DNA of 64,000 nucleotides, from positions 248,001-312,000 of the forward strand of contig JACOEK010000004.1 of NCBI GenBank assembly GCA_024998595.1, given 5' to 3'. This stretch comes from Nitrospira sp. GTDB taxonomy: Bacteria > Nitrospirota > Nitrospiria > Nitrospirales > Nitrospiraceae. Of this stretch, positions 8,515 through 28,946 are shown piece after piece. The notes beneath the pieces were generated by a model. The model was not told the DNA's origin, searched no databases, and was given only the letters and a program-made list of their open reading frames with translations. The translations under genes were made by a program, and so were the position numbers. How positions within the stretch are numbered: the stretch's first letter is position 1; every line of letters begins with the position of its first letter.

Positions 8515-8822
8515 CGCTCGCGCTGGGCTGTTCGGTGTCAGAGCTTCTGAGTCGGCTGTCTTCGAGAGAACTGACGGAATGGATGGCTTACGCGCAGGTC
8601 GAGCCATTTGGAGAAACGGCGGCGTTCTGGCGCGCAGGCATGGTGGCCTCGGTCCTGGCCAACGTGAACCGGACGAAGAAGGGGCAGAAGGCCTTCAAGC
8701 CCGAGGACTTCATGCCCAAGGAACCGAAAGATGCGACGCAAGAGGACACCTGGGAAACGATGCTGAAGCAGGCCAAGGCCATCACCGACATGCTGGGGGG
8801 CAACAGTGGCGACGCTCGGTAG
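8119..8822 (+). CDS. gpGT-like fusion made by programmed -1 frameshift
   Basis: The frame of the downstream T domain is open back to the slippery site at 8469-8475, so a -1 slip gives a 234-aa protein (join 8119-8475 and 8475-8822). Without the slip the T domain would lack its conserved beginning: RFYFRLALALGCSVSELL followed by SSRELTEWMAYAQVEPFGE is the classic start of gpT/DUF4035 proteins and lies partly upstream of any start codon. Known in lambda: the G to GT ratio is set by frameshifting and GT links tape measure to tube. The T frame overlaps the tape measure start. Confidence 0.85.
8469..8475 (+). promoter_or_regulatory. Slippery heptamer A AAA AAC for -1 frameshifting
   Basis: In the gpG frame the codons read GCA AAA AAC, so the heptamer has the exact X XXY YYZ phase. 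After a tandem slip, reading continues at base 8475 in the frame that encodes the gpT-like domain. The following 60 bases are GC-rich and may form a stimulatory structure; I did not fold them. Confidence 0.85.
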
Positions 8823-12953: not shown

Positions 12954-13528
12954 TCCACATCACGCCTGCTGGACAGGTGCGGCGCAGCAGCGGGGCAGGA
13001 ATTCGTGAGCGCATGGCCACCAGGGGCCGCGTGCAGGCCGTGGTGTGGGGCGCCGAGATGGAGCGCTGGCTGCTCGATGACCCGCAGCGCGTCTTTCATC
13101 CCAAGCAATATCGCCGGCACGTCCTCCGGATCGATCCGTGGCGCAAGAACAAGATCGTTGCCAACTCGGTCGCCGGGTTCGGCAACGGCCTCAACCTCAT
13201 GCGCGATTGGCTCGCTGCCGAAGTGCCACCGCCGCCCACGCATGTGGCCTGGGGCACGAACGGCACTGCGCCGCAGCTCTCCGACGTGGGCTTGTTCGAC
13301 GAGAAGGTCCGCACCGACATCATCGCCCGGGCGAAGGGCGACAAGCAGGTCATCATCGGCGGCTTCATGGGCAGCACGACCGGAAACGGGTTCACCTACC
13401 AAGAGGCGTCGCTCGTCACCGGTCCGCTGGCCAGTCAGTGGCGGCTGTTCGCCCGCGTCGCCATCAATCCTATCGTGAAAAGCACCAGCGTGATCATTTC
13501 CGTGAGTTGGCAGGTGGATCTCGCATGA
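12944..13528 (+). CDS. Tail tip-associated protein
   Basis: 194 aa from an ATG overlapping the hub gene by ten bases. Residues from about 100 (THVAWGTNGTAPQLSDVGLF, then VRTDIIARAK) match a beta-sandwich module that recurs in phage tail-tip and fibre-connecting proteins, where a time or unit-like GTGTTAP motif is followed by paired strands. The N-terminal half is basic (RMATRGRVQ, KQYRRHVLRIDPWRKNKIV). Position next to the fibre genes suggests a link between hub and fibres. Confidence 0.55.
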   Translation: MGLIHITPAGQVRRSSGAGIRERMATRGRVQAVVWGAEMERWLLDDPQRVFHPKQYRRHVLRIDPWRKNKIVANSVAGFGNGLNLMRDWLAAEVPPPPTHVAWGTNGTAPQLSDVGLFDEKVRTDIIARAKGDKQVIIGGFMGSTTGNGFTYQEASLVTGPLASQWRLFARVAINPIVKSTSVIISVSWQVDLA

Positions 13529-14544
13529 GCAATACGAACATCACGACGCCGCTGGTTCAGCCCAGCCAGAACGATCTCAATGGCGGGGTGTCCGGAGACG
13601 GCAAGAAGGCCCTGGAGAAATACGTCCGCGAGCTATTCAAAGCGGTCAACGGGATCTCGTATTTCACGAGCGGGAATGCGCTCCCAACCTCAGCGGCGAA
13701 TCTCGTGCTCATCGTCCCGGCGGGGTCGGCCTATATCTCGGGGTATCACCTCACCTGGGCCCAGACCAACGTCACGCTCCCCAGCAGTTCAACGAGTCAC
13801 ATTTTCGTGAAGTTGATCTTCTCCGGCGGCCTCGTGAGCAACGTCCAGATCGAAGACAACACCAGCGGCACGCATCCCGCAGACGCCGTCAAGTACGGCA
13901 CCGTGGTGACCAGCGGCAGCGCGATCACCTCCGCCACCGATCAACGGCTCCTCGAAGGCAACCAGCGCATCCGCCGCGCGGTCATTTCCGCCACCGGCTC
14001 CACTTCGTGGATCGTCCCAGCCAACGTGACGAAGCTTCGCATTCGGCAGTGGGGCGCGGGTGGCGGCGGTGGGGGCGGGGGCGGCCCAGACGGGACCTAT
14101 AGCGGGGGTGATGGAGGGGCCGGCCAAAACGGCGGGTATGTCGAAGTCGTGCAGGCGGTCACGCCAGGCGCGACGGTCACCGTGGTGAATGGGACAGGGG
14201 GAAGCGGTGGGGGCGGCGGTGCGTTCAACGTGAGCGGGGGCGCGAACGGCAGCGCCGGCGGCGCGGGCGGCAATTCGACCATCTCTGGCACCGGATTTTC
14301 GTTTACTGCCAACGGGGGCCCAGCGGGGGCCGCAGGCCCAGGCGCCGCCGCAGGCGGCCCGGCCGGGACCTCTATCGCGTATACGCCCAATCCCGGCACG
14401 GCCACGCAGACCACGGGCACGGCGGATGTGTTGGTGCATGGCGGCGGCCGCGCCGGAGGCACACGGGGCTCCGGCGGCACCGGGACGAGTAACGGCACGG
14501 CCGGGTCGGCCGGCCAAAACGCGGTGACGGTCATTGACTACTAA
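13525..14544 (+). CDS. Tail fibre with glycine-rich receptor-binding domain
   Basis: 339 aa; the start overlaps the previous gene by four bases. Residues 1-150 form a typical fibre base (YVRELFKAVNGISYF, YHLTWAQTNVTLPSS, TDQRLLEGN). From about residue 175 the sequence is dominated by glycine loops (GAGGGGGGGGG, GGAGQNGGYVEVV, GTGGSGGGGGAFN), as in polyglycine-sandwich adhesins such as T4-like gp38, where the loops set receptor specificity. Specificity here is unknown. Confidence 0.8.
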   Translation: MSNTNITTPLVQPSQNDLNGGVSGDGKKALEKYVRELFKAVNGISYFTSGNALPTSAANLVLIVPAGSAYISGYHLTWAQTNVTLPSSSTSHIFVKLIFSGGLVSNVQIEDNTSGTHPADAVKYGTVVTSGSAITSATDQRLLEGNQRIRRAVISATGSTSWIVPANVTKLRIRQWGAGGGGGGGGGPDGTYSGGDGGAGQNGGYVEVVQAVTPGATVTVVNGTGGSGGGGGAFNVSGGANGSAGGAGGNSTISGTGFSFTANGGPAGAAGPGAAAGGPAGTSIAYTPNPGTATQTTGTADVLVHGGGRAGGTRGSGGTGTSNGTAGSAGQNAVTVIDY

Positions 14545-14554
14545 AAGGAACGCC

Positions 14555-16885
14555 ATGCGACGACAGACCAGAGACCTCCTGCTGACCCTGTGCCTGTGGC
14601 TCAGCCTCGGCAATGGCCTGGCGCTGGCCGCACTCGATCCCATCACGAATTTTGCCGAAACGACCATGTCCACCGGCTACGACGCGGCGGCCACGTCGGT
14701 CATTGTCGCGGCCGGCACCGGCTCGAAATTTCCCAGCAGCTATACGTATCCCTTGGTCTGGTGGAATTGCACCGATTACAACCGCGCCAGCGCCGACCCG
14801 AACGTCGAAATTGTTTCCGTCACCAACCGCTCCGGCGACACCTTCACCATCGCGCGCGGGCAAGAAAGCACCACGGCCGTCGCCCACAACACGGCCGGGA
14901 AAGTCTACTGTTTCGAGCTGAACCTGACCAAGGGCATGTGGGACCGGATTCAGACGACCATCAACGGGGTGGGCGGCGGGATCGCCGACGTCGTCGATTG
15001 CGCCTCCTATGCCTCTTGCAACGATGCCGTCACGGCGATCAGCTCCGCCGTCAAAACCCTGCGCATCTCCAATGCCCAGCCCGTGGCGAGCAACCTCACG
15101 ATCCCGCAGAACATCACCGTCGAATGCACCGGATCGGGGGTCTTTCAGATCGCCACCGGCGTCACGCTCACCGGCCATTCGCCGGAGCAGTTCAAGTGCA
15201 ACCCACGCGCGCAGATCTTCAGCTTTACGGGCACCGCCGCGCTCGCCTTTACCAATCCCGGCACCGTCTCCATCGGCTGGTGCGGGGCGATCCCGAACGA
15301 TGGCACCGACGACAGCGTCGCTGCGAAGAAATGCCACGACAGCATGCCAAGCGCCACGAATACCGGGGTGCTGGAACTCTTGCCGGGGGCCTACACCTGG
15401 AACAGTGAGCTGGTGAGCGCCACCAACGGGATCTTGATCCGCATGGTCGGGGCCACCCTCGACATGACCGGCATGACGGGCAGCGGGCGGGCGTCCATTC
15501 ATGCCTCGCAGAACGTGCTTGGCGCCATCGTGCTGACGGGATCGAATCAGCGGGTGGTCGGCGGGCGCATCACCGGCCCGAACACCGTCAACACCAACAA
15601 GCTCGCCGTCGGCGTGCTCTTGATCGGCGCGGCGAATGCGCGTGTCAGTTCGATGCTCGGCGATGGGCCCTATGCCTGCGTCTGGGCCGGGAATAACACC
15701 ACGGATCTGGTGCTGGCCAATATGGATCTCTCCGGGTGCGGCTACGGGGGCTTTTTAGGCTTCTCCTCCGCGCCCTCCGATCCACAGGTCACCAGGGCCA
15801 CGGTGCTGAACGTGCGGGCACATGGGAGCACCATCGGCGCCGGGCTGCTGATCGAGTCCTTCGCGCGCGATGTGCAAGTGCTCGGGGGCTACTACTACAG
15901 CAACGCCACGCATGGCCTCGACGTCGAAGTGGGCGGCGATCGGGTGCAGCTCATCGGGGTCAACAGCTATTCCAACTCCGGTCATGGCCTGCGCATCCGC
16001 TATGGGAGCGATACGGGGGAAACGGCCGGGAAATGGGGCTACGGCCGCCGGTCGATCGTCGCAAATAACATCTTCCGCAACAACACCCTCGACAACGTCT
16101 CCATCCAGCTCGTCGACTATAGCCAGTTCTCCACCATCGGCGGCATTGAGGAAATGTCGATCGAAGGGAACTATTCGGAGGGCTCGGGCGACGATGGGTA
16201 TGTGATCGGTTGCGTGCGCTGCACGGTCAAAGGCAATGGCGCCTACCGCAACCAGGGCGAAGGCTTCACCTTCCGCTCCCTGCGCGATACGGACATCAGC
16301 GGCAATCAGGCCTGGGATAACGGCATCGCCGGCGACAACCGCCGAGGGTTCAAATTCACCACGGCCGCCACCACCGGCAGCACGCCACCCAATTCCACCA
16401 ACGTCACGCTGCGCGGGAACCACGGGGGCGATACCAGGTCCGGCGGCTCGCGCACCACCAACTTTTCCTTCGATCTGCAAAAACTCGACAACAGCGATGT
16501 GAGCGGCAACATCGGCACGAATGCCAACACTGCCGACTGGATCAACGTCAACGGTCTCACGGCCGTGAGCTTCTTTCAGAATCGCGGCACGGTCAACAGC
16601 GGGGAGACGATGGGCAGCGTCGTGGCGAAACACCTGAGCGCCACCGGCACCTATGACCCGCCGAATGTCACCTCTGGATCCCAAACCAGTACCACGCTCG
16701 CGGTGAGCGGCGCGGCCGTGGGGGATACCGTCACCTGCGGGCATACGACCATCACCGCCGACCTCTGGCAGATCTCCTGCTACGTCAGTGCGGCCGACAC
16801 CGTGCGCGTGGTGCTGAAGAATCATTCCGGGGGCGCGATCGACGCGGCCAGCGGCACGCTGCGCGCCGACGTGTGGAAACACTGA
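14555..16885 (+). CDS. Beta-helix tail spike with signal peptide
   Basis: 776 aa after AAAAGGAACGCC. Residues 1-26 are a clear Sec signal (basic start, LLLTLCLWLSLGNGLALAA, Ala-X-Ala cleavage region). The next 100 residues (DPITNFAETTMSTGYDAAA, NVEIVSVTNRSGDTFTIARG) are a well-known phage tail-protein N-terminal domain. From about 230 to 690 repeated short strands with Asn, Gly and Val (VRAHGSTIGAGLLI, GYYYSNATHGLDVEV, NIFRNNTLDNVSI) indicate a right-handed beta-helix as in pectate-lyase-like spikes, probably polysaccharide-degrading. A signal peptide on a virion protein is unexpected because tails assemble in the cytoplasm. Confidence 0.8.
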   Translation: MRRQTRDLLLTLCLWLSLGNGLALAALDPITNFAETTMSTGYDAAATSVIVAAGTGSKFPSSYTYPLVWWNCTDYNRASADPNVEIVSVTNRSGDTFTIARGQESTTAVAHNTAGKVYCFELNLTKGMWDRIQTTINGVGGGIADVVDCASYASCNDAVTAISSAVKTLRISNAQPVASNLTIPQNITVECTGSGVFQIATGVTLTGHSPEQFKCNPRAQIFSFTGTAALAFTNPGTVSIGWCGAIPNDGTDDSVAAKKCHDSMPSATNTGVLELLPGAYTWNSELVSATNGILIRMVGATLDMTGMTGSGRASIHASQNVLGAIVLTGSNQRVVGGRITGPNTVNTNKLAVGVLLIGAANARVSSMLGDGPYACVWAGNNTTDLVLANMDLSGCGYGGFLGFSSAPSDPQVTRATVLNVRAHGSTIGAGLLIESFARDVQVLGGYYYSNATHGLDVEVGGDRVQLIGVNSYSNSGHGLRIRYGSDTGETAGKWGYGRRSIVANNIFRNNTLDNVSIQLVDYSQFSTIGGIEEMSIEGNYSEGSGDDGYVIGCVRCTVKGNGAYRNQGEGFTFRSLRDTDISGNQAWDNGIAGDNRRGFKFTTAATTGSTPPNSTNVTLRGNHGGDTRSGGSRTTNFSFDLQKLDNSDVSGNIGTNANTADWINVNGLTAVSFFQNRGTVNSGETMGSVVAKHLSATGTYDPPNVTSGSQTSTTLAVSGAAVGDTVTCGHTTITADLWQISCYVSAADTVRVVLKNHSGGAIDAASGTLRADVWKH

Positions 16886-17928
16886 TGCGCCGAATGCTCG
16901 TCATTGCGCCTCTGTTCCTGGCCCTGCTCGCGTCGTGCCTCTGGGCGATGCCGGCGCAGGCTGCCGTGGCTAGAAACAGCGCCACCTATACGCAGTGCTC
17001 ATCCTATCCCTGCACCAACGCGCACACGCCCGCCGGGGCCGATCCCTTCCTGGCCGTCTGTGTGGCCTGGTGGCACTATCTCTCGACGCCCACGATCACG
17101 GCGGCGAGCTGGAACAGCCTGCCGCTCACGCATGTGCTCACGGCCAGCAATCCCAGCTGCGGGGACACCTGCAAGGCGGCTGTCTATATTCTGCCGAATC
17201 CGTCGTCCACGACCGCGAACACCTCCATCACCTTTTCGGGAACGCCGACCGCCGCCGTCGTCGGGACCATTTCCTTTACCGGCGTCGATCCCACCGCGCC
17301 GATCGGCACGGCGGTGTCGGCCATCGGATCCGGCTCTCCAGCCAGCGTGACCGTGAGCAGTGCAAGCGGCGAAGCCGTGCTCGATTGCCTCAATTCCATC
17401 GCGGCCGGGTCGCCGCCCTCCGTCGCCTCAGGCCAGACCTCGAATTGGAGCACCTTCGACACGGCGGGCTTCACGCATAACGCGAGCAGCGCTGTCGCCG
17501 GGACGCCCTCCACCGTCTCCGCATGGACCATCTCCGGCACGCCGCAGTGGGCGATGCTCGGCGTGCCGATCAAGCCCGTCGGGGGCGGCGGTGGGGGAGG
17601 CTCCACGCCGGGCACGCAGCGCGTCATCAGCTGGAACGACAACTCCGACAACGAAACCTGCTTCCATCTGCAATGGCAGACCGATCAAAGCCTGCCGAAC
17701 TGGGTCGACATCAATGCCTGTCTGCCGGCGAACACTGTCTCCTACGCCCACAACATCGGGACCAATACCGGCGACTGCTACCGAATCGAGGCCACGAACG
17801 CGGGCGGCAGTAACGGCTTTACCAGCCCGGCTTGCTCGGCAGCGGCTCCACCGCCGCCTCCACCACCGCCCCCACCGTCGGCCGTCCTGACTGCCGTGCC
17901 GTTCGATTTTGAGGAGGATTTATTATGA
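16885..17928 (+). CDS. Secreted FN3-containing protein with Pro-rich tail
   Basis: 347 aa; ATG shares a base with the preceding stop. N-terminal Sec signal (VIAPLFLALLASCLWAMPAQA). Residues 30-235 form a Cys-containing beta domain (TQCSSYPCTNAH, VCVAWWHYLSTPTITAASW, IKPVGGGGG) like the small secreted domain often found in phage fibres. A glycine hinge is followed by an FN3-like domain (RVISWNDNSDNETCFHLQWQ, DCYRIEATNAGGSNGF) and then ten prolines near the C-terminus. Several cysteine pairs would suit an oxidising, extracytoplasmic location. Function unknown; adhesion is inferred. Confidence 0.7.
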   Translation: MRRMLVIAPLFLALLASCLWAMPAQAAVARNSATYTQCSSYPCTNAHTPAGADPFLAVCVAWWHYLSTPTITAASWNSLPLTHVLTASNPSCGDTCKAAVYILPNPSSTTANTSITFSGTPTAAVVGTISFTGVDPTAPIGTAVSAIGSGSPASVTVSSASGEAVLDCLNSIAAGSPPSVASGQTSNWSTFDTAGFTHNASSAVAGTPSTVSAWTISGTPQWAMLGVPIKPVGGGGGGGSTPGTQRVISWNDNSDNETCFHLQWQTDQSLPNWVDINACLPANTVSYAHNIGTNTGDCYRIEATNAGGSNGFTSPACSAAAPPPPPPPPPPSAVLTAVPFDFEEDLL

Positions 17929-18863
17929 CGCGACGCATCGCGTGGGTGCTCAGTCTGGTGCTGCTCGGTGCGTCTCCGGCGATGGCTCAGGTCTGGCCGA
18001 ATGAACCGGCAGGATCGGCGAATGTGTTCGACTGCACCATGGCTCATCTGCTCTGCAATGGGCTGCTCACCGACAACTACAACACCACCGGATTGAATGC
18101 GAGTCCGCCTTCCGCCTTCTCCGTGGTGTCTGGGAGTGATGCCTCGGAGCTCGTATCTCCTCCCAGCGCCCTGGTTTCTAAGATTGCGCAAGGGCAACTG
18201 ACCGGCGGCACGGAGCTGACGCGCTACCTGGGAACAAACCGGCGCGAGATTTATGTGGGAATCGACTGGCGGACGAACCTGGGCTTTCAAGGGCGCACTG
18301 TCGGCAACAAGATGGTGCTCATCCGGGGCCCGGGTGTGAACCACGTATTTCTGTTCGGCAATTCGTCTCTTGTAAATGGCCAAGCGCCGCTGATTTTCGC
18401 CCACAATACAGGGGCACCGTCCTATCCAGGATTCAGCGAGAACCATGCCTGCCCGGCCTTTGCGCTTGGTGAAGCCTGCTACCCGAACGTGGGGCCGGGC
18501 ATCCTTCATGTCGGCCCACCATGGCAAAAGCTCGAATTCTATCTGAGGTCGAGTACCACCTCGACCTCGCGTGATGGGATCGTCCGCGCGTGGATCGACG
18601 GCGTGCCGGCCTTAAATTATACAAACCTGAACGTCGCGCCGAATGGATTCGACAATGTCACTTGGTCGGAGACCTGGGACGGTTCGCCGTGCTGCACCTT
18701 CGTGACCAGCGCTGACGGCTGGCAGCATTGGATCGGCCATTGGCGAATCAGCTTTCCCAATTGCCCGAGCGGGTGCGCGCCAACCGGGGGAGGGGGCACC
18801 GCGCCACCGCCTCCACCACCGCCCTTGCCACCAAACAAGCCGACGAATCTGAGGGTGCAGTGA
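17925..18863 (+). CDS. Secreted lectin/jelly-roll-like protein
   Basis: 312 aa, overlapping its neighbour by four bases with GAGGAGG upstream. Signal peptide at residues 1-22 (WVLSLVLLGASPAMAQ). The body has concanavalin-like features (REIYVGIDWRTN, WQKLEFYLRSSTT, GIVRAWIDGVPALNY, WQHWIGHWRIS), the pattern of polysaccharide lyase or lectin jelly-rolls. The end is a Pro-rich linker followed by PTNLRVQ, which is the first strand of an FN3 domain whose remainder is missing from this protein. Carbohydrate binding or cleavage is inferred. Confidence 0.7.
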   Translation: MTRRIAWVLSLVLLGASPAMAQVWPNEPAGSANVFDCTMAHLLCNGLLTDNYNTTGLNASPPSAFSVVSGSDASELVSPPSALVSKIAQGQLTGGTELTRYLGTNRREIYVGIDWRTNLGFQGRTVGNKMVLIRGPGVNHVFLFGNSSLVNGQAPLIFAHNTGAPSYPGFSENHACPAFALGEACYPNVGPGILHVGPPWQKLEFYLRSSTTSTSRDGIVRAWIDGVPALNYTNLNVAPNGFDNVTWSETWDGSPCCTFVTSADGWQHWIGHWRISFPNCPSGCAPTGGGGTAPPPPPPPLPPNKPTNLRVQ

Positions 18864-19432
18864 TGCGACCACTCAGACAGACGGTCGTGCTCGCCTGGGT
18901 CATCCTGTTGGGCCTCGCGGGCGTGTCAATCAGCGCGGTTACGAATGGGACATTTACCGCGACCTGGACGCCGGCAACTGATGCGGCTGAGCAATACGAA
19001 TTCCGCTGGCGGCATTTTGCCTCGGACGACTGGCTCGCGCTGCCGACCATGCCTGGCCCAGCCGGATCGATGCGGGTGACGTTCACCGCACTCCCGACTG
19101 TGCCGACTACCGATCGGTGGATGTGCGTCGATGCGCGGATGGTGACGCCGACGGTGGGCGCGTGGCTGTCAGAGACATCGGATGGGCCCTCCTGTAATAC
19201 CGTGGATGTGGCGGTGATTCCGGTGCCCACGCCTCCGCCACCGATCCCCACGCCTCCGGCGCCTGCGCCGTCGCCCATACCACCGCAACCGAACATCTTC
19301 ACCAATCTGCAACAGGCCGACGGTCGCCTCTCGCTGGAGTATCAAGTCGGGGCCTGCCCGCGTGGCGTGCAGCAGACCACCGGGGCGCTCAAAAACGGCC
19401 GCCGCACCATCACCTTGACCTGTAGGAGATAG
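18863..19432 (+). CDS. Secreted FN3 protein
   Basis: 189 aa; ATG shares a base with the previous stop. A Sec signal (VVLAWVILLGLAGVSISA) leads directly into FN3 strands B onwards (NGTFTATWTPATDAAEQYEFRW, then MRVTFTALPTV and DRWMCVDARMVTPTVGAW), so the domain lacks its own first strand. A long Pro-rich linker (VPTPPPPIPTPPAPAPSPIPP) precedes a 50-residue C-terminal module with two cysteines (ACPRGVQQTTGALKNGRRT). The previous gene ends with what looks like the missing strand. Confidence 0.65.
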   Translation: MRPLRQTVVLAWVILLGLAGVSISAVTNGTFTATWTPATDAAEQYEFRWRHFASDDWLALPTMPGPAGSMRVTFTALPTVPTTDRWMCVDARMVTPTVGAWLSETSDGPSCNTVDVAVIPVPTPPPPIPTPPAPAPSPIPPQPNIFTNLQQADGRLSLEYQVGACPRGVQQTTGALKNGRRTITLTCRR

Positions 19433-19433
19433 C

Positions 19434-19658
19434 ATGCCCGTCAACGCCATCTTTCTCACGCAAGAGGAATACGACGGAATCGTGACCCGACTCGCCGCCC
19501 TTGAAGCCGCGCTCCCGGCACGATCCTCCGATATCGAGGCGCTCACCTTGCGGGTGCAAAGTCTTGAATCCACCCTCAGCGCCTTTTCGAAAACCGTGGC
19601 CGATCTCCCGCGCCTGGTCGTGAAGGAGTCTGTCACAAAGGGAGGCTCACCTGCATGA
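19434..19658 (+). CDS. Small coiled-coil protein
   Basis: 74 aa following a GTAGGAGATAGC site. Heptad-like spacing of Leu and Ile (LAALEAALPARSSDIEALTLRVQSLESTLSAF) predicts a coiled coil. It has no signal peptide, unlike both neighbours, so it would remain cytoplasmic, where it could act as a trimerisation element or chaperone for fibre proteins. That role is inferred from its position only. Confidence 0.6.
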   Translation: MPVNAIFLTQEEYDGIVTRLAALEAALPARSSDIEALTLRVQSLESTLSAFSKTVADLPRLVVKESVTKGGSPA

Positions 19659-20017
19659 CGATCCGTCTCGCGATGGTGCTGATCGGTGTGCTGGTTTGTG
19701 CGGACGCCCAGGCCCAGACCGTGCTGCAAGTGCCCTATGACGCGGCGGTGATCGCCTGGCAACCGGCCGTGACGCCTGCGCCGACCGGCGTGGGGGAAAC
19801 GCGCTGGTATGCGATGAATTGCGGGGCGGGGGATCTTCGCATTGACCTCCCGGCCTCGTCCGTGCCGGTCAAGACCGTCGCGCCGAAGCCGGGAAAATAT
19901 AGCTGCACGCTCTGGGCCGTGAACAACTTCGGCAAATCGCTGCCGGCGACGGTGCCGGCCTTTGACGCGGGCTACCTTCCGGCCACGCCGGACAACGTGC
20001 GCATTGAGGTGAGATGA
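19655..20017 (+). CDS. Secreted FN3-like protein
   Basis: 120 aa, four-base overlap with the previous gene. Sec signal at residues 1-21 (LAMVLIGVLVCADAQAQ), then an FN3-like domain with one cysteine pair (ETRWYAMNCGAG, GKYSCTLWAVNNFGKS). The C-terminus ends in PDNVRIEVR, again the first strand of an FN3 domain with nothing after it. It overlaps the next gene, an SGNH hydrolase, by four bases. Confidence 0.65.
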   Translation: MTIRLAMVLIGVLVCADAQAQTVLQVPYDAAVIAWQPAVTPAPTGVGETRWYAMNCGAGDLRIDLPASSVPVKTVAPKPGKYSCTLWAVNNFGKSLPATVPAFDAGYLPATPDNVRIEVR

Positions 20018-21771
20018 ACCCGTACCTCGGACTCGTCGCGACGCGGGGTCAGATGCCGTTGCTGTTGAACAGCACGAACCGGCAAGCGATGTCACGCACT
20101 GGCCGCTTTGCCAGGACCGACATCACCTCCCTCCAACTCGTGTTGGCGAACTGGTACATCCCGCTCACGACCTGGGCCGAAACGGGATCTGGGAGCACCG
20201 CGACCGTCACCGCCAGCATTGAATATCCAGCCAGCACGTTCACGCAGGTGCTCTTCGGCGGGAGTCCAAGCGGGTCCATTTCAAATCTCGCGTCGCTGGT
20301 TTCGGATGCGGTGGCCGTCAGCATTCCGAATGGAGCCAAGTTTTGGGTCAGGATTTATTGGACGAGCACCACGGGGGTGCTGTACTGCGCACAAGATGTG
20401 TCCGGCGGCAGCACCATCGGTGATGGATTTGAAACCGGCGTGTCAGGGATCACCGACAAGACGATGAGCGGATCCGTCACGGCCTCAGACAATCACTATT
20501 CACCAGTTGCCGTCATCGGCCTCACTCGGGAACCGTCTGTCGTCATTGTGGGCGACAGCATTGCAGAAGGCGAGGGGGATACGGTCGGCGATGCCACGGG
20601 AGACTTCGGTTTGGTGGCTCGCTCCATCGGTCCGCGATTCGCGTACACCAATCTGGCCCGATATGCCGATGACACGGCGCGATTTCTCGCCAGCTCCACC
20701 CTGCGGCAAGCGCTGTTTCCGTATGCGTCGCATCTGATCTGCCAGTATGGGTTCAACGACTTTTACAATGCCGGCAGAACCGTCGCGACGGTGTATGGAA
20801 ACCTCTCCACGATTCGCGGGTACATGACGGCCCTGGGGTCGGAGAAACGAGCCTATCAGACGACCATCACACCCTACACCACGACGACCGACAACTGGGC
20901 GACGCTGGGAAACCAGACGGCGGTGTCCGGCAATGCGAATCGTGTCACCTTCAACAATTTGGTCCGAACGGGTCTGCCGTTCTATATCGAAACCGCCGAT
21001 GCGATCGAGTCCTCAAGAGACAGCGGCAAGCTGAAAGTGACCGGATCGGCCTTCGGCTATACGCCAGATGGAGGCCATCTCAACACGCCCGGGTATGAAC
21101 TGGTGCGAGATGCCAACGTCTTTGGAGGCATCTCGGATTTCAGCGGTGTGTTGGCCTTCCCTCGCACGATCATCCGGGACACCTTTACGCGAGCCAATGA
21201 AAGCCCTGCAACAGGCTGGACCCAGATCACGCATTTCAGCTCCGTGGTGCACCAGATTGTGAGCAACGCCCTCAAGGCCAATGCCGGGTCATCCGTCTTT
21301 GATTCGTATTTCACCAGCGTGGGCGCCTGCGGTCCGAACTGTGAGGTCTACGCCAAGTGGTCGGTCAAAGGGCCGAATCAATGGGTGACCTTGCGCGTCG
21401 CGAACCCGGGTGCGGCCACCGACGGGTACTACATTGAAATTGTGGACCATGGCGGGGGCGGCGCAGATGAGTTGAATGTGTATCGCTTTGACAACAGCGC
21501 CAACACGCTGGTCGGCGCGCAGGTGCTGCTGACCTTCAACGCGGGCGATGAACTCGGCGCGAGAATGATCGGCGACACCATTGAGGTGTTCATCAACGGC
21601 ATTCTGATCGCCACGCGCACCGATGCCACCTATTCGGCAGCGGGGTTCATCGGGTGTGGCGGCATAAGCAATGCGGGCAACACCGCGCCGCAAGCGACGT
21701 ATTTTGGTGGCGGGACGCTCGTCGGACCTCGGCTGTACCGCCCTCTGCCCATGCACTTATTGGCACGATAA
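20014..21771 (+). CDS. Tail-associated SGNH hydrolase
   Basis: 585 aa. An N-terminal beta region (residues 1-170) is followed by an SGNH/GDSL esterase domain: block I VVIVGDSIAEGEGD with the nucleophile Ser182, block III-like LICQYGFNDFYN near 245, and block V GGHLNTPGYEL near 355 providing Asp/His. A C-terminal concanavalin-like domain (residues 390-570; FDSYFTSVGACGPNCEVYAKW, VFINGILIATRTDATY) probably binds glycan. No signal peptide. Such enzymes in phages usually remove acetyl groups from capsule or O-antigen, a fitting activity beside a beta-helix spike. Confidence 0.75.
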   Translation: MNPYLGLVATRGQMPLLLNSTNRQAMSRTGRFARTDITSLQLVLANWYIPLTTWAETGSGSTATVTASIEYPASTFTQVLFGGSPSGSISNLASLVSDAVAVSIPNGAKFWVRIYWTSTTGVLYCAQDVSGGSTIGDGFETGVSGITDKTMSGSVTASDNHYSPVAVIGLTREPSVVIVGDSIAEGEGDTVGDATGDFGLVARSIGPRFAYTNLARYADDTARFLASSTLRQALFPYASHLICQYGFNDFYNAGRTVATVYGNLSTIRGYMTALGSEKRAYQTTITPYTTTTDNWATLGNQTAVSGNANRVTFNNLVRTGLPFYIETADAIESSRDSGKLKVTGSAFGYTPDGGHLNTPGYELVRDANVFGGISDFSGVLAFPRTIIRDTFTRANESPATGWTQITHFSSVVHQIVSNALKANAGSSVFDSYFTSVGACGPNCEVYAKWSVKGPNQWVTLRVANPGAATDGYYIEIVDHGGGGADELNVYRFDNSANTLVGAQVLLTFNAGDELGARMIGDTIEVFINGILIATRTDATYSAAGFIGCGGISNAGNTAPQATYFGGGTLVGPRLYRPLPMHLLAR

Positions 21772-21783
21772 AGGAGACCATTT

Positions 21784-22251
21784 ATGGGACGCATGTTTAC
21801 GGGACAGTTTAACGGGGTGGCCGTGACGGCACAGCAAGACTTGTTTGAGCTGGTGGCGCCGGCCACCGCGATCTGCGTGATTCACGCGATTGAGCTGGAG
21901 CAGACCACCGAAGTCGGGGACGCACAGGAAGAGGGACTGTCGATTCTGTTGAAAAGTGGCGCCACGACATCAGGCTCTGGGGGCAGCACTCCGTCAAAGG
22001 TGGCCGCGCAAGTCAGCGATGCCGCCTCAGGGGCAACGCTCGAAGCGAATAATACGACCAAGGCGACGGCAGGAACCATTGTCACGCATAACGCCTGGTC
22101 CTGGAATGTGCGTATGCCGTTCAACAAGATTTTCACACCGGAGATGCGGCCGGTGGTTGCGCCCTCCAGAAGGCTCACCCTCGAACTCGGTACGACGCCG
22201 GCCGACTCGATCACCATGAACGGGACGATTACGTGGGAGGAAATCGGGTAA
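21784..22251 (+). CDS. Phage structural protein, unassigned
   Basis: 155 aa after AAAGGAGACCATTT. Strand-rich, soluble, with no signal peptide (MFTGQFNGVAVTAQQDLFEL, TAICVIHAIELEQTTEVGD, RRLTLELGTTPADSITMNGT). Small proteins of this pattern are common in environmental siphophage genomes next to fibre genes and are thought to be virion decoration. I cannot name a family. Directly followed, with no spacer, by the repeat protein. Confidence 0.6.
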   Translation: MGRMFTGQFNGVAVTAQQDLFELVAPATAICVIHAIELEQTTEVGDAQEEGLSILLKSGATTSGSGGSTPSKVAAQVSDAASGATLEANNTTKATAGTIVTHNAWSWNVRMPFNKIFTPEMRPVVAPSRRLTLELGTTPADSITMNGTITWEEIG

Positions 22252-23160
22252 ATGCCTGACGTCTTCCGGCGAACCTCTCGCTATGCGCTGTATGTCCGTC
22301 GACCCGTTCGGCTCTTGGGTGCCGCGCCGGCGGCGGTCACGTTCGATGCAGCCGTGGGGGTGTCGATCGTCACGTCCGGCAGTCTCTCGACATCCATTCT
22401 GGCGTCGGGTGCCGCGACCTGTTCGATTGGGGCTGCAGGAGCCCTCACCACCGCTGTTCGGTTGGCCGGAGCCGTCACCGTGTCCGGTGTGGCGGCTGGC
22501 GCACTCACCACACAAATCACCCTGGCCGCTGCCGTGACTGCGTCGCTCACGACCGCCGGGGCACTCTCAACGCAAATTCAATGTGCCGGATCGGGGCTGC
22601 TGTCCGTGACTGCAGCGGGCGCACTCACGACGCAGATCACCATGGTCGGCGCGGGGTCGGTCTCGGTCACGACGGCCGCCGATCTGTCTGTGGGATCCGG
22701 CCTTGCCGGCGCAGTCACCGTCTCGGGGCAACTTGCGGGCGCGCTCACGACCCAGATCGCCTTGGCTGCCGGACTGTCTGTGGCACTCAGCACCACCGGG
22801 GCCCTGACCACCGCCATCCGCATGGCCGGAGCAGGGTCCGTCTCGGTCCTGGCCTCCGGTGATCTCACGACGAGTCTCCGCCTGACCGGATCGGCGGTGC
22901 TCTCCGTCTCGCCCACCGGGGCCCTCACCACGGCCATCACCCTGGCTGGGGCCTCGGTGTGTGCGGTACAGACCACGGGGGCGATCAGCACCGCCATCAC
23001 GCTGGCGGGGGCACCGACCCTCTCGGCGTTCGCGCAGGGGGCGCTCTCGACCATCGAACGGAATGGGGTGCCATTCGACGTCATCGTCTTTGTCACGGCA
23101 CAACTGTCTATCACCTGTGTTCTATCGCAAACCATCACGAAGCGCGTGGTGACCGTCTAA
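22252..23160 (+). CDS. Fibre-like protein made of 20-residue repeats
   Basis: 302 aa. After a 42-residue basic start, eleven tandem 20-residue units follow in exact register, of the form GALTTAITLAGAxSVSVxTA (Gly-Ala-Leu-Thr-Thr at the start of each). The regular small and hydrophobic alternation suggests a beta-solenoid or stacked fibre shaft. A 40-residue cap (VPFDVIVFVTAQLSITCVL) closes it. Signal peptide absent. The stop of the previous gene is immediately followed by this ATG. A shaft or spacer role in adsorption is inferred. Confidence 0.7.
   Translation: MPDVFRRTSRYALYVRRPVRLLGAAPAAVTFDAAVGVSIVTSGSLSTSILASGAATCSIGAAGALTTAVRLAGAVTVSGVAAGALTTQITLAAAVTASLTTAGALSTQIQCAGSGLLSVTAAGALTTQITMVGAGSVSVTTAADLSVGSGLAGAVTVSGQLAGALTTQIALAAGLSVALSTTGALTTAIRMAGAGSVSVLASGDLTTSLRLTGSAVLSVSPTGALTTAITLAGASVCAVQTTGAISTAITLAGAPTLSAFAQGALSTIERNGVPFDVIVFVTAQLSITCVLSQTITKRVVTV
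22378..23037 (+). repeat. Eleven 60-bp in-frame tandem repeats
   Basis: Each 60-bp unit encodes one 20-residue repeat beginning with a GALTT-like motif. The units keep exact length but have diverged in DNA sequence, so the period is under selection at protein level. Unequal recombination could still change the copy number. Confidence 0.8.
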
Positions 23161-23177
23161 CGAGGAGGGAATCGTCT

Positions 23178-24062
23178 ATGTCTTACAAGGAAATGCTGTT
23201 GGGGCTCTCGAGCGAGACGCAGGCCACCATGCCCTATGCGGAACTCTGCGTCATGCGGAGCTCGGCTTTTGCTGAGCATGTGGGGGCCATGGAGGTGCCG
23301 ACCCGGCTGAAGGAATGGGCCGCCATCATGCAGGCGCGGTATGGCCGCAAGGTGAAGGTGTGGCACGCGGTCCAGACCTCCTGGCTCGTGGCGCTGATGA
23401 TCGTGCGCTACGGCGAAGCCATCGAACACTGGCCGGGGGCGTTCTCTGATGACGACGTGCGCCGGGCCGTCAAATGGGAACAAGGCGAGATGCCCGCGGG
23501 CGTCACCTACATTCCGCAGGCCGACGGCCTCCAGCTCGCCTGCTATGCCGTGGCGCTGTTGTGCGTCGCGCTGGGCATCATCCACGGATCGGGATTCTGG
23601 GGCCTCGCGGCTTTCCCGTTCCTGCTGGGCACGGCCATGACGGACTACCTCGAAAACAAGCTGGCGGATCATATCTTCCGCACCACCACGTTTACCCAGC
23701 CCTCCGTGCTGGCCATGGCCTTGTATACCGCCGCGCCGGGGGAAACCGGGGGTGGCACGGAAGTCTCCGGCGGCTCGTATGCCCGCGTCTCGAACAACCC
23801 GGCCAACGCCAATTGGAACGGCACCCACGGCAACACGACCGGGGCCAGCTCCGGCACGGGCGGACAAGTGAGCAACGCGGGGGCCATGACGTTCCCGACG
23901 CCGTCGGCCAACTGGGGCTCGGTCACCCATTTCGGGATTCACGATGCGACCAGCGCCGGAAACCTGCTGATCTATGGCGCGCTGACGGCAGCGAAGACGG
24001 TCAACAACGGCGACCCGGCTCCGTCCTTCCAGGCGGCGGCCTTGACCGTCACCTTTGCCTGA
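23178..24062 (+). CDS. Fibre protein with an N-terminal membrane domain
   Basis: 294 aa after CGAGGAGGGAATCG. Residues 1-130 are an unknown domain with a strongly hydrophobic pair of helices near 120-160 (LQLACYAVALLCVALGII, GFWGLAAFPFLLGTAM). From about residue 160 it is a well-known phage module (DYLENKLADHIFRTTTF, LAMALYTAAPGETGGGTEV, GGSYARVSNNP) that normally starts a protein by itself. Here it has become fused behind a membrane segment, consistent with the other export features of this region. Confidence 0.65.
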   Translation: MSYKEMLLGLSSETQATMPYAELCVMRSSAFAEHVGAMEVPTRLKEWAAIMQARYGRKVKVWHAVQTSWLVALMIVRYGEAIEHWPGAFSDDDVRRAVKWEQGEMPAGVTYIPQADGLQLACYAVALLCVALGIIHGSGFWGLAAFPFLLGTAMTDYLENKLADHIFRTTTFTQPSVLAMALYTAAPGETGGGTEVSGGSYARVSNNPANANWNGTHGNTTGASSGTGGQVSNAGAMTFPTPSANWGSVTHFGIHDATSAGNLLIYGALTAAKTVNNGDPAPSFQAAALTVTFA

Positions 24063-24074
24063 TACGGAGGGTCT

Positions 24075-24398
24075 ATGCCGAAGGGGGGACTCGTAGCGGG
24101 GGACGGCGGCAGCCTCTTGCGCGTGCGCATTGTCGACAGCGAGACGAACGAGCCGATCGATCTGACCGGCAAGACCGTCATGCTGCGCTTCAGCCTTGCC
24201 GGCGGAGCGACGGTGGAGAAGATGATGACGGCGCTCGACCAGACGGCGAGCAAGGGCTGGGCGACGTATCAATTCGTCGGCTCCGATCTGCCGCAAGGGG
24301 GCGAGCTGCAGGCCGAAACCCGGCTCAACGATGGGCAGCCGGATCAGCTCACGAGCGATCGCAAATTCAAAATTCCCGTGAGAGATCCACTGCCGTGA
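24075..24398 (+). CDS. BppU-like Ig-fold baseplate protein
   Basis: 107 aa, start preceded by ACGGAGGGTCT. The arrangement (LLRVRIVDSETNEPIDLTGKTVMLRF, then KGWATYQFVGSDLPQGGELQAE) is the one-domain Ig-like fold seen at the N-terminus of baseplate upper proteins (BppU_N), where it attaches fibres to the baseplate. It has no signal peptide. Confidence rests on this pattern and location. Confidence 0.65.
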   Translation: MPKGGLVAGDGGSLLRVRIVDSETNEPIDLTGKTVMLRFSLAGGATVEKMMTALDQTASKGWATYQFVGSDLPQGGELQAETRLNDGQPDQLTSDRKFKIPVRDPLP

Positions 24399-24437
24399 AA
24401 GATGCGCAGAGGAAGAAGATTTGAGATGGGGGGACTT

Positions 24438-24950
24438 ATGACACGACGAATCATGAGCGCGGCCATGCTGGCGCTCGCGCTGGGATGGCTGGGAGTGGCG
24501 CAGGCCGCTCCCGTGGAAGAAATGCACCGCACCGATAAGCTCATGACCGAGCATGACGGCGCGACCGGTGACATTTATCTGCTGACCAAGCTCAAAAGCC
24601 TGCTGGCCTGCGAACGGCTTCAGGATCAGGCCTCGAAAGGGCACTGCGTCATCGTCGATGCGGCCAACCTCTCCGTGATCAGCAAGACCACGGCGGCGAC
24701 GATTGGGGGCGGGGTCGCTAATGACACCTACCTCAAGCGCGTGATCGTGCTCGCGGCGCTGACGGGAACGTGCGTCTTCACCGGCTTCGCCGACAGCGAC
24801 GGCACCGCCCAGTCGTTTACCATTCCGGCCGCCTTCGTCGGCGAGCGCAATTTCGGCGGGGCGAAGAACAGCGCCGGGGCCTTGACGGTCACCTGCAGCA
24901 ATGCCGCCGACGATAACCTCGTCCTGGTCGAATGGTGGCCGGCATCATGA
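24438..24950 (+). CDS. Secreted phage protein, unassigned
   Basis: 170 aa from the ATG after GGGGGGACTT; upstream starts at 24402 and 24426 would disrupt the signal peptide. Sec signal at residues 1-24 (MSAAMLALALGWLGVAQAAP). The mature part includes two cysteine pairs (LACERLQDQASKGHCVIVD, GTCVFTGF, VTCSNAAD) and ends in a short beta module like those on phage surface proteins (DDNLVLVEWW). The start of the next gene overlaps its stop by four bases. Confidence 0.65.
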   Translation: MTRRIMSAAMLALALGWLGVAQAAPVEEMHRTDKLMTEHDGATGDIYLLTKLKSLLACERLQDQASKGHCVIVDAANLSVISKTTAATIGGGVANDTYLKRVIVLAALTGTCVFTGFADSDGTAQSFTIPAAFVGERNFGGAKNSAGALTVTCSNAADDNLVLVEWWPAS

Positions 24951-26275
24951 CGCGCATGATCGTCAGCCTGATACTCCTCGTGCTGTTTCCATTGCCGGCG
25001 CTCGCCGATCGTCCAGTGGCGACGCTCAATCCGCTGTTTGTGAATGCCTCACCTCGCCCAGTCGTTTCAGCGCGGACGGCCCCACGGCTTGTTGAGAACA
25101 TCATGGGCGGGGTCAGTTCTACGGCCTATGGCTACGAACGGTATCAGAAGGATGCTTCCTCGGCCTGGGGCGATTTCCCGACCAACACCACAGAAATTGT
25201 CTGGGGATACACGACAGACGGTGGGCAATGGTTCCAGGCCACGGCCACCCTCGGGGCAGCAGAGCGCGTGTGGGGTGCGGTGTCCTTTCCCGCAGTGCTC
25301 GGGGAAACCTACGTGATTTCCTTTACCGTCGATGCAAAGACCGGCACGCATGGGGCGGCAGGGAATGCTGCGTTAGCGAGCGGCACCTGGACGGGGACCA
25401 CCTCCATCAATAATGCGGCATTGGGCAGAAATGCGCTGGTCGTGAAAGCCACCAGCAATGCGACGGCGCAAGTTCGTCTTGGGGTGGGGGTCTCCGCAAA
25501 TAATGGGGCCACCGGCTCCATGCGATTCTCAAACGTCATGGTTGAGCGGGTGCCGGCGAGTGTGGCCTACCCCTCCGAGTATGTCTACCCAGGGGAGCAG
25601 CGCGTGTTCCCGTATAGCTATTCGACGTCTGTGGTGAGCGGGGCGGTGCAGACCCCGACCGTCGGCGCAGTGTACGCAGTGCCACGCCGCTCCAGCGTCC
25701 TGATGCTGGGCGATTCGTGGGCGAACGACCCGTGGACAGCGTCAAATTTCGGAGACTTCCCTTGGCAGACCAGGCGAGCCCTTGGCCGTGCACCAATCGC
25801 CATCAACGCCTATGGCGCGTCTGGTGCGCGTATTGACCAAATTACAAGTCAAATTGCGACGGCGGTGGCCCGCAACTCGACCATTCCAGGCGCGGGCCCT
25901 TATACCCTCTGCGTGGCCTTCGGTGGGACGAACGATATTGCGCAAAGCCGCACGCTGACGCAAATGCAAGCGGCACGACTTGAGCAAATCTCCGCCATTG
26001 TTGCGGCTGGCATGTATCCCATCCTCGTGACTGTCGCGCCCTATAACGCCGCGAGTGCCGGGCAGCAAACCGTCATGGACGCCTACAACGCGTGGCTCAA
26101 GACGTTGGGGTATCCGGTCTATGATTTATTCGCGGATGCCACCGATGGAAACAACGATCTCAAATCAGTGTGGGATGTCGGCGACGGTGTGCATCCCTCG
26201 CAGCACGCGAATGGCGGGGCTGCGATCATGGGTCAACGCCTCGCGGATCTCATCATGTTGGTAGGAGATCGATGA
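24947..26275 (+). CDS. Secreted SGNH hydrolase
   Basis: 442 aa; ATGA overlap decides the start. Sec signal (VSLILLVLFPLPALAD). Residues about 55-215 form a carbohydrate-binding-like beta sandwich (WFQATATLGAAERVWGAV, SMRFSNVMVERVP). The SGNH domain carries block I LMLGDSWAND with the nucleophile serine, block III CVAFGGTNDIAQ and block V VGDGVHPSQHANGG with Asp and His. It is the second SGNH enzyme of this cluster and, unlike the first, carries an export signal. An esterase acting on envelope or capsule glycans is inferred. Confidence 0.8.
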   Translation: MTRMIVSLILLVLFPLPALADRPVATLNPLFVNASPRPVVSARTAPRLVENIMGGVSSTAYGYERYQKDASSAWGDFPTNTTEIVWGYTTDGGQWFQATATLGAAERVWGAVSFPAVLGETYVISFTVDAKTGTHGAAGNAALASGTWTGTTSINNAALGRNALVVKATSNATAQVRLGVGVSANNGATGSMRFSNVMVERVPASVAYPSEYVYPGEQRVFPYSYSTSVVSGAVQTPTVGAVYAVPRRSSVLMLGDSWANDPWTASNFGDFPWQTRRALGRAPIAINAYGASGARIDQITSQIATAVARNSTIPGAGPYTLCVAFGGTNDIAQSRTLTQMQAARLEQISAIVAAGMYPILVTVAPYNAASAGQQTVMDAYNAWLKTLGYPVYDLFADATDGNNDLKSVWDVGDGVHPSQHANGGAAIMGQRLADLIMLVGDR

Positions 26276-26292
26276 CAAATCAAGGAGGACCT

Positions 26293-26739
26293 ATGTTACG
26301 CAACACCCTGTGCCTGATGAGTCTGTGCCTGCTGGTGGGACTGACCGGCTGCGTGGAGCGGCTGGAGCACTTCCATCGGGGGAACAAGATCATCGAGCGG
26401 CATTACATTCCGGGAGACTGGAGCATTCCGGGGGATGTGTCCAAGACGGAATGCCGACCCGATCAAATGGAATGGAGCGTGTTCTGGGGGAAGAAGGTCT
26501 GCCCGGACACGATCGAGAAAAACGCACCGCTCGCGGTGGAGCGCGGGAGCGTGCAGACGGCCAGTTACAAAGATCTGGTGGTGCCGGCGGCCATTCAGGG
26601 GGCGTTCACCTTCGGGGGCTTTGTCGCGCTGGCGAAACTCTCACCGGAGGTGCGGATCAACCAGGCCAACTACGGCAGCCCGATTCGAACGAGCACGCTG
26701 CTGATCAATGGCCCTGTCCCTGGAGGCGTGGCGCCCTGA
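26293..26739 (+). CDS. Phage-encoded lipoprotein
   Basis: 148 aa after AAGGAGGACCT. A lipoprotein signal with lipobox LTGC puts the mature N-terminus at Cys20. The mature part has a cysteine pair (TECRPDQ, KKVCPDT) and a C-terminal hydrophobic stretch near residues 95-115 (VPAAIQGAFTFGGFVALAKL) that may contact membrane. It lies between tail and lysis genes. Phage lipoproteins at such a position often block superinfection or act in lysis; which applies is unknown. Confidence 0.7.
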   Translation: MLRNTLCLMSLCLLVGLTGCVERLEHFHRGNKIIERHYIPGDWSIPGDVSKTECRPDQMEWSVFWGKKVCPDTIEKNAPLAVERGSVQTASYKDLVVPAAIQGAFTFGGFVALAKLSPEVRINQANYGSPIRTSTLLINGPVPGGVAP

Positions 26740-26963: not shown

Positions 26964-27088
26964 TCAGGTTCACGATCAGCCGCCGGCAGTTTCTGAAGGT
27001 GTCGATCGGGACGGTCGCAATGGGGTGGGGGATTGTGCCGATCACGAATGGTCTGTTGCAGGAGGGGCACGCATGGAATCAACGGTGA
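26960..27088 (+). CDS. Micro-ORF with a twin-arginine motif
   Basis: 42 aa; its ATG overlaps the upstream stop and its end overlaps the endolysin start by 16 bases. It reads MIRFTISRRQFLKVSIG, an almost perfect Tat motif (SRRxFLK) followed by a hydrophobic stretch (VAMGWGIVPITNGLL). As a protein on its own it would be little more than a signal peptide or one membrane anchor. The endolysin frame is one base behind, so a -1 slip in the overlap would fuse this signal to the enzyme; no classical slippery site is visible. Confidence 0.45.
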   Translation: MIRFTISRRQFLKVSIGTVAMGWGIVPITNGLLQEGHAWNQR

Positions 27089-27555
27089 CACCCTGGCAGA
27101 TGTACGGGCGCGTGCTACTGGCGCTCACCCTCTGGCGCGAGGCGCGGGGGGAACCGTTCACCGGCAAAGTGGCGGTGGCGCAATCCATCAAGAACCGCGT
27201 CGATCATCCCTCATGGTGGGGGAACGATCTCGTGTCGGTGCTCACCAAGAAATGGCAGTACTCGAGCCTGACCGATCCCCACGATCGGCAGCTCACCACC
27301 TGGCCGAAGGCGGATGACGCGGTGTTCGAAGAATGCCTCACCATTGCCGACGGGGTGCTGAAGGAGCGCTACGCCAGCCCGCTCACGCGCGGGGCGGATT
27401 CGTACTTTGACGACTCGCTGCAAGGCGATCTGCGGCCCAAGTGGGCGCGGGAACATCCGGAGCGGTTCGTCGGCAAGATCGGGCGCATGAACTTTTACAA
27501 CATGGATTGCGACGTCGAGGACCCGCACGTCTCGATTAAGGAGACCGAGGCCTGA
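27073..27555 (+). CDS. SleB-like cell wall hydrolase (endolysin)
   Basis: 160 aa after AGGAGGGGCACGC. It has the hydrolase_2 (SleB/CwlJ) pattern: LTLWREARGEPFTGKVAVAQSIKNRV near residue 20 with the key Glu of REARGE, then ADGVLKERYASPLTRGADSYF and the GRMNFYN end. These enzymes cleave the peptidoglycan glycan backbone. It has no signal peptide, so it needs a holin, or help from the Tat micro-ORF ahead of it. It lies at the head of the lysis module. Confidence 0.85.
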   Translation: MESTVTPWQMYGRVLLALTLWREARGEPFTGKVAVAQSIKNRVDHPSWWGNDLVSVLTKKWQYSSLTDPHDRQLTTWPKADDAVFEECLTIADGVLKERYASPLTRGADSYFDDSLQGDLRPKWAREHPERFVGKIGRMNFYNMDCDVEDPHVSIKETEA

Positions 27556-28035: not shown

Positions 28036-28073
28036 TGCATCAACGCCTGTCATGGGAAGGGGAGGGCTTCGAT

Positions 28074-28346: not shown

Positions 28347-28552
28347 TGCCCTGGAGCGACGTGCCCACACTGCTGCTGAAAGCCTGGCGGTATCTGCTGG
28401 GGGATCAGACGCGAAAGGAGGCCAGCCTTGAAGCTGATGGAGAACGCGCCCTGGAGGCGAGCAAGCAGGCCCGCACGGCTGCTGAGCTTAACGCTGCTGA
28501 TGCTGACCTGCAGCGCGTGCATGACGAAGCCCGCGCCGCCCGCGGCGAATGA
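28346..28552 (+). CDS. Rz-like helical protein
   Basis: 68 aa, ATG sharing a base with the holin stop. It has a short hydrophobic start (VPTLLLKAWRYLLG) and then a long charged helix (LEADGERALEASKQARTAAELNAAD), similar to the periplasmic helix of spanins but without a convincing membrane anchor. A lipoprotein gene in another frame begins inside it, the Rz/Rz1 arrangement. The inner-membrane role may be shared with the product at 27667. Confidence 0.5.
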   Translation: MPWSDVPTLLLKAWRYLLGDQTRKEASLEADGERALEASKQARTAAELNAADADLQRVHDEARAARGE

Positions 28553-28733
28553 CCGGCCCTGCTATCAGTGGGTGATCACGCAGGATCAGGAAGTGTACGT
28601 CTACGACAATGGGCATCTGGTCGCGCGATTGGAGACCGAGCCCTATGATGCGGTGATTTCCGGCTGGTGCGTGATGCGGAATAACGAACACCTGATGAAC
28701 GATATCCGGAGGCTGGCGAGGCCGACGGACTAG
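28428..28733 (+). CDS. Rz1-like outer-membrane spanin lipoprotein
   Basis: 101 aa. The TTG start is supported by AAAGGAGG eight bases upstream, stronger than any site before the ATG at 28437. A basic start, hydrophobic LLSLTLLMLTCSAC and a Cys in a lipobox-like context followed by Pro-rich KPAPPAA define a lipoprotein. The gene overlaps the Rz-like gene by 125 bases in a different frame. Spanins fuse inner and outer membrane in the last lysis step. The globular end (YQWVITQDQEVYVYDNGHLVARL) is longer than lambda Rz1. Confidence 0.6.
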   Translation: MKLMENAPWRRASRPARLLSLTLLMLTCSACMTKPAPPAANDRPCYQWVITQDQEVYVYDNGHLVARLETEPYDAVISGWCVMRNNEHLMNDIRRLARPTD

Positions 28734-28740
28734 AGGTCCG

Positions 28741-28917: not shown

Positions 28918-28946
28918 ATGCCTCCTATGTGTTTAACGTGAAATTA

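Follow-up and report, generated by a model that had tools for sequence, protein, structure and literature searches.

According to the textbook view, the particles of tailed phages are completed inside the cytoplasm. Their known tailspikes comprise an N-terminal adaptor, which begins a few residues from the initial Met in the phages that were inspected, followed by a beta-helix. Phage-encoded exported or lipoprotein products are familiar from the lysogenic-conversion cargo of lambda (Lom and Bor). Late proteins of tailed phages that use the Sec pathway before lysis are likewise described, namely the secreted and signal-arrest-release (SAR) endolysins such as fOg44 Lys44 and P1 Lyz (PMC6116005). 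The window analysed here is a stretch of 64,000 nucleotides from Nitrospira sp. (assembly GCA_024998595.1, contig JACOEK010000004.1, positions 248,001 to 312,000), and its late tail operon encodes, between positions 14555 and 26739, eight proteins with predicted export signals. The first of these (14555; genes are named by their start position) resembles the known tailspikes in its adaptor-plus-beta-helix architecture (its fold matches Det7 gp208, HK620 and a phage-type K1 capsule lyase) and in its position in the tail operon, but differs from them in having a Sec signal ahead of the adaptor. The secreted and SAR endolysins are lysis enzymes, whereas the proteins of the window are tail fibres and accessory proteins; and, in contrast to Lom and Bor, the genes of the window are members of a coupled late tail operon and include virion-docking domains. 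What is new here is the true tailspike with an added, predicted export step, with the secreted and SAR endolysins and the exported lysogenic-conversion proteins as its known kin. No published report of Sec signals on tailspikes was found in the literature searched, which leaves out most subscription journals.

The window holds a temperate tailed phage genome, with portal, head maturation protease, major head protein, major tail protein and tape measure genes and, near 38.6-39.9 kilobases, an integrase gene adjoining tRNA-Ser. The phage lies dormant, as a prophage, in the genome of its host, a member of the Nitrospiraceae. Signals were scored by a home-made written rule with a genome control, and were also read by eye. 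An earlier reading made from the letters of this DNA alone (the sequence-only reading) had described Sec or lipoprotein signals on eight proteins of the block, and all of these N-termini (14555, 16885, 17925, 18863, 19655, 24438, 24947 and 26293) are as it described them, with a short basic N-region, a hydrophobic core and then either a lipobox or an AxA-like site. By eye, the putative cleavage sites (marked by a slash) are LALA/ALDP in 14555, PAQA/AVAR in 16885, PAMA/QVWP in 17925, VSIS/AVTN in 18863, AQA/QTVL in 19655, VAQA/APVE in 24438 and PALA/DRPV in 24947, with the lipobox LTG/C in 26293. The rule marks 8 of the 14 curated genes in 14555-26739, against 47 of 326 host genes (14.4%), and the probability of at least 8 of 14 is 2.5e-4. 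With automatic gene calls the counts are 7 of 12 in the same block, 0 of 18 upstream (from the head genes to 14544) and 1 of 21 among flanking chromosomal genes. Owing to the LASC in its hydrophobic core, 16885 is scored as a lipoprotein by the rule, and we read it as a normal Sec signal because its relatives are without that cysteine and the later A-A site is kept. The genes of the tail and lysis region are as follows (E, expectation value).

8806..11424, plus strand: tape measure protein, no signal (phrog_13339, E 2.5e-104)
11424..12953, plus strand: conserved tail protein (hub-like), no signal (74% identity to L048, 68% to L061; baseplate-hub match weak, E 0.04)
13525..14544, plus strand: glycine-rich minor tail protein, no signal (phrog_356; zero cysteines by count)
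14555..16885, plus strand: tailspike, with putative Sec signal (about 25 residues), virion adaptor domain (about 31-141) and beta-helix (phrog_8469; 8jov_1; tailspike-like fold; signal kept in L048 and L061)
16885..17928, plus strand: predicted exported cysteine-rich protein resembling a phage minor tail family (phrog_553; 10 mature cysteines; 72-74% identity in L048 and L061)
17925..18863, plus strand: jelly-roll protein, predicted exported, with the fold of a polysaccharide lyase or a lectin, of a family found in host exopolysaccharide loci (model and homologue loci)
18863..19432, plus strand: predicted exported FN3-like protein without the first FN3 strand (fn3 E 0.019, below the Pfam cut-off; kept with signal in L048 and L061)
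19434..19658, plus strand: small coiled-coil protein, no signal (likewise signal-less in L048, L061 and L128)
19655..20017, plus strand: predicted exported FN3-like protein of 120 residues (signal by rule and by eye)
20014..21771, plus strand: SGNH/GDSL esterase-like tail protein, no signal (phrog_8480, E 2.3e-54)
21784..22251, plus strand: tail-region protein, no signal (zero family matches)
22252..23160, plus strand: repeat protein, no signal (relatives in L048, L088, L132 and L134)
23178..24062, plus strand: Gp80 virion fibre domain (153-292) preceded by an N-terminal extension that contains a hydrophobic stretch (PF23140, E 1.2e-42; 8jou_a, E 2.2e-11)
24075..24398, plus strand: BppU_N-domain protein, no signal (PF10651, E 2e-6)
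24438..24950, plus strand: predicted exported orphan protein (signal)
24947..26275, plus strand: predicted exported SGNH hydrolase (PF13472, E 7.7e-12)
26293..26739, plus strand: lipoprotein (lipobox; 87% identical in genome G168, where the signal has diverged and the lipobox is kept)
27073..27555, plus strand: cell wall hydrolase, probable endolysin, no convincing signal (PF07486; phrog_938 endolysin)
28437..28733, plus strand: Rz1-like spanin lipoprotein (phrog_456 weak, E 0.0055; homologues in L046 and L128)

The plus-strand genes from 11424 to 26739 are spaced by gaps of -10 to +39 nucleotides with many start/stop overlaps, which bears out the single continuous plus-strand structural operon of the sequence-only reading, and for this reason genes 14555-26739 are taken as one translationally coupled late operon. 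Signal-bearing and signal-less tail genes overlap one another by a few bases. The overlaps favour coupling to the late operon over separately transcribed moron or lysogenic-conversion cargo. A scan of positions 11000-29000 gave 2 promoter-like sites against 3.4 in shuffled sequences and 9 terminator-like sites against 11.4, with the proviso that host promoters may differ.

Residues 31-141 of the spike match the tail fibre family phrog_8469 (E 1.2e-10), and residues 32-140 match residues 8-108 of 8jov_1, a tail fibre chain from a solved phage structure, at E 4.8e-5 with a family profile and at only E 0.025 with the single sequence. For the body of the protein the model, of low confidence, gives a beta-helix, and almost all of the top Foldseek hits are tailspikes. 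Thirty-six INPHARED records match the spike, and none of the alignments starts before query residue 29; in the four records that were opened, the gene starts near the adaptor domain (within a few residues of Met) and has no signal. The adaptor is also signal-less in L088, a related Nitrospiraceae prophage. Scans of viral contigs gave zero matches with the spike as query and did give matches with 16885, the hub and Gp80. There are no ATG, GTG or TTG codons between the ATG of 14555 and the conserved adaptor domain, and a mis-set start for the spike is thereby ruled out. From its sequence and modelled fold, 14555 is a real tailspike behind a putative signal.

The same tail operon is found in two relatives, L048 (Nitrospiraceae, another genus) and L061/L090 (an IMG/VR phage contig). 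Signal-like N-termini are present on the spike, 16885, 17925 and 18863 in both L048 and L061, those of L048 17925 and L061 16885 being missed by the strict rule and signal-like by eye only; the lipoprotein was seen in L048. The coiled-coil gene 19434 is always signal-less in the relatives too, as are the repeat and BppU-like genes of L048. In L048 the place of 19655 is taken by an unrelated, predicted exported protein of 285 residues. The signal regions of five families show 105 replacements relative to the window, 6 of them to D, E, K, R, H, N or Q, where 28% would be expected from random codon changes (P 8e-10, approximate since the compared sites share ancestry). AxA-type cleavage sites and lipobox motifs are kept across the relatives, and the n-regions are positively charged in most. 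Because the putative signals have diverged and stayed hydrophobic, we read them as under selection as signals, and the direction of this effect is clear.

Further signals occur elsewhere on the IMG/VR contig. A small protein adjoining the major tail protein (L090 6489-6944) has a signal and its counterparts in the window (7751-8110) and in L130 do not, an apparent gain on one lineage. Upstream of the tape measure gene, L090 168-4845 encodes more signal-bearing proteins, one of 496 residues.

The sequence-only reading had suggested looking in other phages for the same layout of signal plus tail domain, and this layout turned up in L085, L128, L149/L150 and L161. In the prophage L085/L046 (genome G061), whose portal and head genes are podovirus-type, a protein of 690 residues consists of a signal, a tailspike-matching domain and a beta-helix region. 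The match of this domain is to the cryo-electron microscopy tailspike chains 9vyg, with a weak one to the head-binding domain of a tailspike (7eeq), and related domains without a signal occur in L120, DSL-LC05 and P26218. L046 also encodes a predicted exported relative of 17925 and, next to the lysis genes, several more predicted exported proteins. The second type of case concerns Gp80 (PF23140), a virion fibre family represented in a solved phage structure (chain 8jou_a, 'Podophage GP4 fiber I protein gp80') and to which 23178 of the window belongs, with a match of 145.7 bits against a cut-off of 27. In the prophage L128 (genome G052), and also in L149/L150 and L161, a Sec signal stands directly ahead of the Gp80 domain, whereas the window copy has ahead of it an N-terminal extension of about 150 residues (23178-23640) with a hydrophobic stretch; this stretch, which had been noted from the letters as an added membrane domain, is indeed present and is common to the closest relatives L088, L132 and L134. 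Among 55 IMG/VR Gp80 loci, 50 have neither signal nor hydrophobic extension, 2 have the extension of the window type and 3 (two distinct cases) have a signal directly ahead. Virion fibre domains with predicted signals are thus uncommon, yet they recur. Given that the signals are selected and conserved, that one precedes a true tailspike domain and that independent cases exist, the predicted export of these proteins is very likely real. The paradox of exported parts on tails built in the cytoplasm, raised by the sequence-only reading, has become sharper, as Sec signals are now seen to precede docking domains of solved phage structures.

Predicted exported proteins near tail genes also occur in two other phages. 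Sinorhizobium phage PBC5 (L006 5658-6707) encodes an SGNH hydrolase with a signal near a tail fibre gene, and Rhodoferax phage P26218 (L119 4679-5188) a predicted exported protein of 169 residues near a tail gene.

The mature forms of the predicted exported tail proteins contain 14, 10, 8, 4, 2, 4, 1 and 2 (plus lipid) cysteines, mostly even numbers, and cysteine accounts for 1.94% of their residues against 0.44% in the non-exported tail proteins (Fisher P 7e-8). In the spike adaptor, Cys 72 and Cys 119 are present in 3 of 3 signal-bearing spikes, and at those columns in 0 of 5 signal-less homologues. This pattern fits disulfides formed in the periplasm.

The model of 17925 is a jelly-roll near alginate/glucuronan lyases and lectins (Foldseek E 3e-8 to 1e-7, template-modelling score 0.40-0.50 on the query), and searches of its sequence against Pfam and the PDB gave zero matches. 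Its fold is like that of the PL36, PL20 and PL14 jelly-roll polysaccharide lyases (Aly36B, glucuronan lyase and vAL-1; Foldseek E about 1e-7), from which it differs in sequence (11-15% identity). The earlier description of 16885, 17925 and 18863 as FN3 or lectin-like needs correcting: 16885 resembles the minor tail protein family phrog_553, 17925 has the fold of a polysaccharide lyase or a lectin, and the fn3 match of 18863 falls short of the Pfam cut-off. Relatives of 17925 in 26 other genomes of the order are mostly host-chromosomal, and most of the loci that were opened adjoin sugar-nucleotide and glycosyltransferase-like genes, several of them also an MBOAT acyltransferase and an SGNH protein. 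Since these relatives adjoin polysaccharide and acetylation genes, we infer that the target of 17925 is a host slime polymer, perhaps acetylated. The same chromosomal distribution, beside exopolysaccharide and acetylation genes, means that the phage may have captured some of the exported genes from a host.

The host has its own 17925 homologue (G000:C2:148186-148962, in L040), situated, together with MBOAT and SGNH acetylation genes, in a slime-polymer locus that is found genus-wide. The phage copies of 17925 (window, L048 and L061) end in a conserved PPNKPTNLRVQ that resembles a first FN3 strand, and 18863 begins, past its own signal, at the second FN3 strand (window 17925-19432; also L048 and L061), so that two exported proteins may share a single FN3 domain between them. 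The stretch coding for PPNKPTNLRVQ doubles in part as the ribosome-binding site of the next gene.

The account that we favour, tentatively and at a little under an even chance, is that the proteins mature in the periplasm and dock onto virions when the cell lyses, while host slime is cleared by polysaccharide-active proteins exported alongside them. The host Sec machinery would export the eight late-operon proteins, and the tailspike would be translocated, would lose its signal to signal peptidase with the adaptor retained, and would fold in the periplasm, probably with disulfide bonds. Holin, endolysin and spanin would open the cell, and virions assembled in the cytoplasm would meet the stored spikes and accessory fibres, which would then dock; lysis should depend on the holin, because the endolysin has no convincing signal. 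Around the lysing cell 17925, 24947 and the cysteine-rich binding proteins would act on host slime, perhaps acetylated. The P22 tailspike reportedly attaches to tail-less particles in vitro, which makes late docking physically plausible. Several points weigh against this account. Siphovirus tails are normally completed in the cytoplasm, and the spike model is of low confidence (predicted local distance difference test score, pLDDT, 63; predicted template-modelling score, pTM, 0.54). Conservation of the adaptor does not exceed that of the beta-helix (57% vs 61%, window vs L061), which leaves docking without proof by selection. Finally, L121 has a spike relative that lacks a signal and yet contains 9 cysteines in 586 residues, so that a cysteine-rich beta-helix is no mark peculiar to export; cysteine content, weakened as proof by this relative, was kept as support only.

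Secretion without docking is the main rival, a real possibility although appreciably short of probable: former virion proteins would now be secreted to cut or coat host slime, freeing progeny from the biofilm or blocking superinfection, and would never join virions. The family of 17925, host-chromosomal, exported, set beside MBOAT and SGNH acetylation genes and with a polysaccharide-lyase-like fold, speaks for it, as do the exported SGNH hydrolase and the lipoprotein of the block and the exported SGNH hydrolase of PBC5, but it does not account for the intact adaptor domains retained in two unrelated spikes or for the coupling of the genes to ordinary tail genes. Signals are also found on Gp80 proteins made of the virion fibre domain alone and, as these have no enzyme, export without docking lacks an obvious use for them; the kept adaptors and these proteins are the reason why docking is favoured over secretion alone. 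The sequence-only reading had offered late joining, action at the host surface and uncleaved membrane contact; the first two are inseparable by sequence, and we favour late joining, whereas the third is the least likely because the sequence changes but its AxA-type sites and hydrophobicity persist.

Dual localisation, in which export is slow, with precursor still in the cytoplasm going into the virion and the exported fraction acting outside, appears improbable. Homologues gain and lose signals easily (7751 of the window is without one, L090 6489 has one), and in L061 an in-frame ATG coincides with the mature start of the spike; against these stand the kept AxA cleavage sites and the fact that the window spike offers no alternative start from its signal to its adaptor, and L048 only one, inside the hydrophobic core. 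Dual start codons were rejected as a general mechanism, the ATG at the mature start being found only in L061 and not in the window or L048. It is very unlikely that the N-termini stay uncleaved and let virions touch membranes during infection: they are hydrophobic and conserved in character, but the relatives retain the signal peptidase and lipobox motifs, the n-regions of most are positively charged, and the signal lies ahead of the virion-docking end of the spike rather than at its tip. An artefact, whether of mis-set starts or of a dead prophage into which a bacterial surface operon had inserted, can hardly be credited in view of the missing alternative start of the spike, the same layout in an IMG/VR phage contig and in another genus, and the few-base overlaps of signal and non-signal tail genes, although the 17925 family is mainly chromosomal. 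The earlier statement that this is not a simple inserted bacterial operon accordingly stands for the operon as a whole, an insertion being rejected by the conserved layout, but fits 17925 less well.

More generally, it is possible, at somewhat less than an even bet, that some tailed phages finish their virions outside the cytoplasm, with spikes and fibres sent through Sec, disulfides formed in the periplasm and loading at lysis, and that the trait arose more than once by addition of signals to adaptors. This would give tailed phages a compartment-split assembly route and open to them disulfide-stabilised receptor-binding proteins. The annotation of phage proteomes would also change, since tail proteins that are exported may be mistaken for host genes and set aside.

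Two features at the distal end of the region complete the description. The orphan 24438 has zero relatives among 235 genomes of the host order. On the minus strand, 29068-30191 holds three convergent cargo-like genes, encoding a staphylococcal-nuclease homologue with a signal, a protein of 114 residues with a signal, and a TRL-like lipoprotein.

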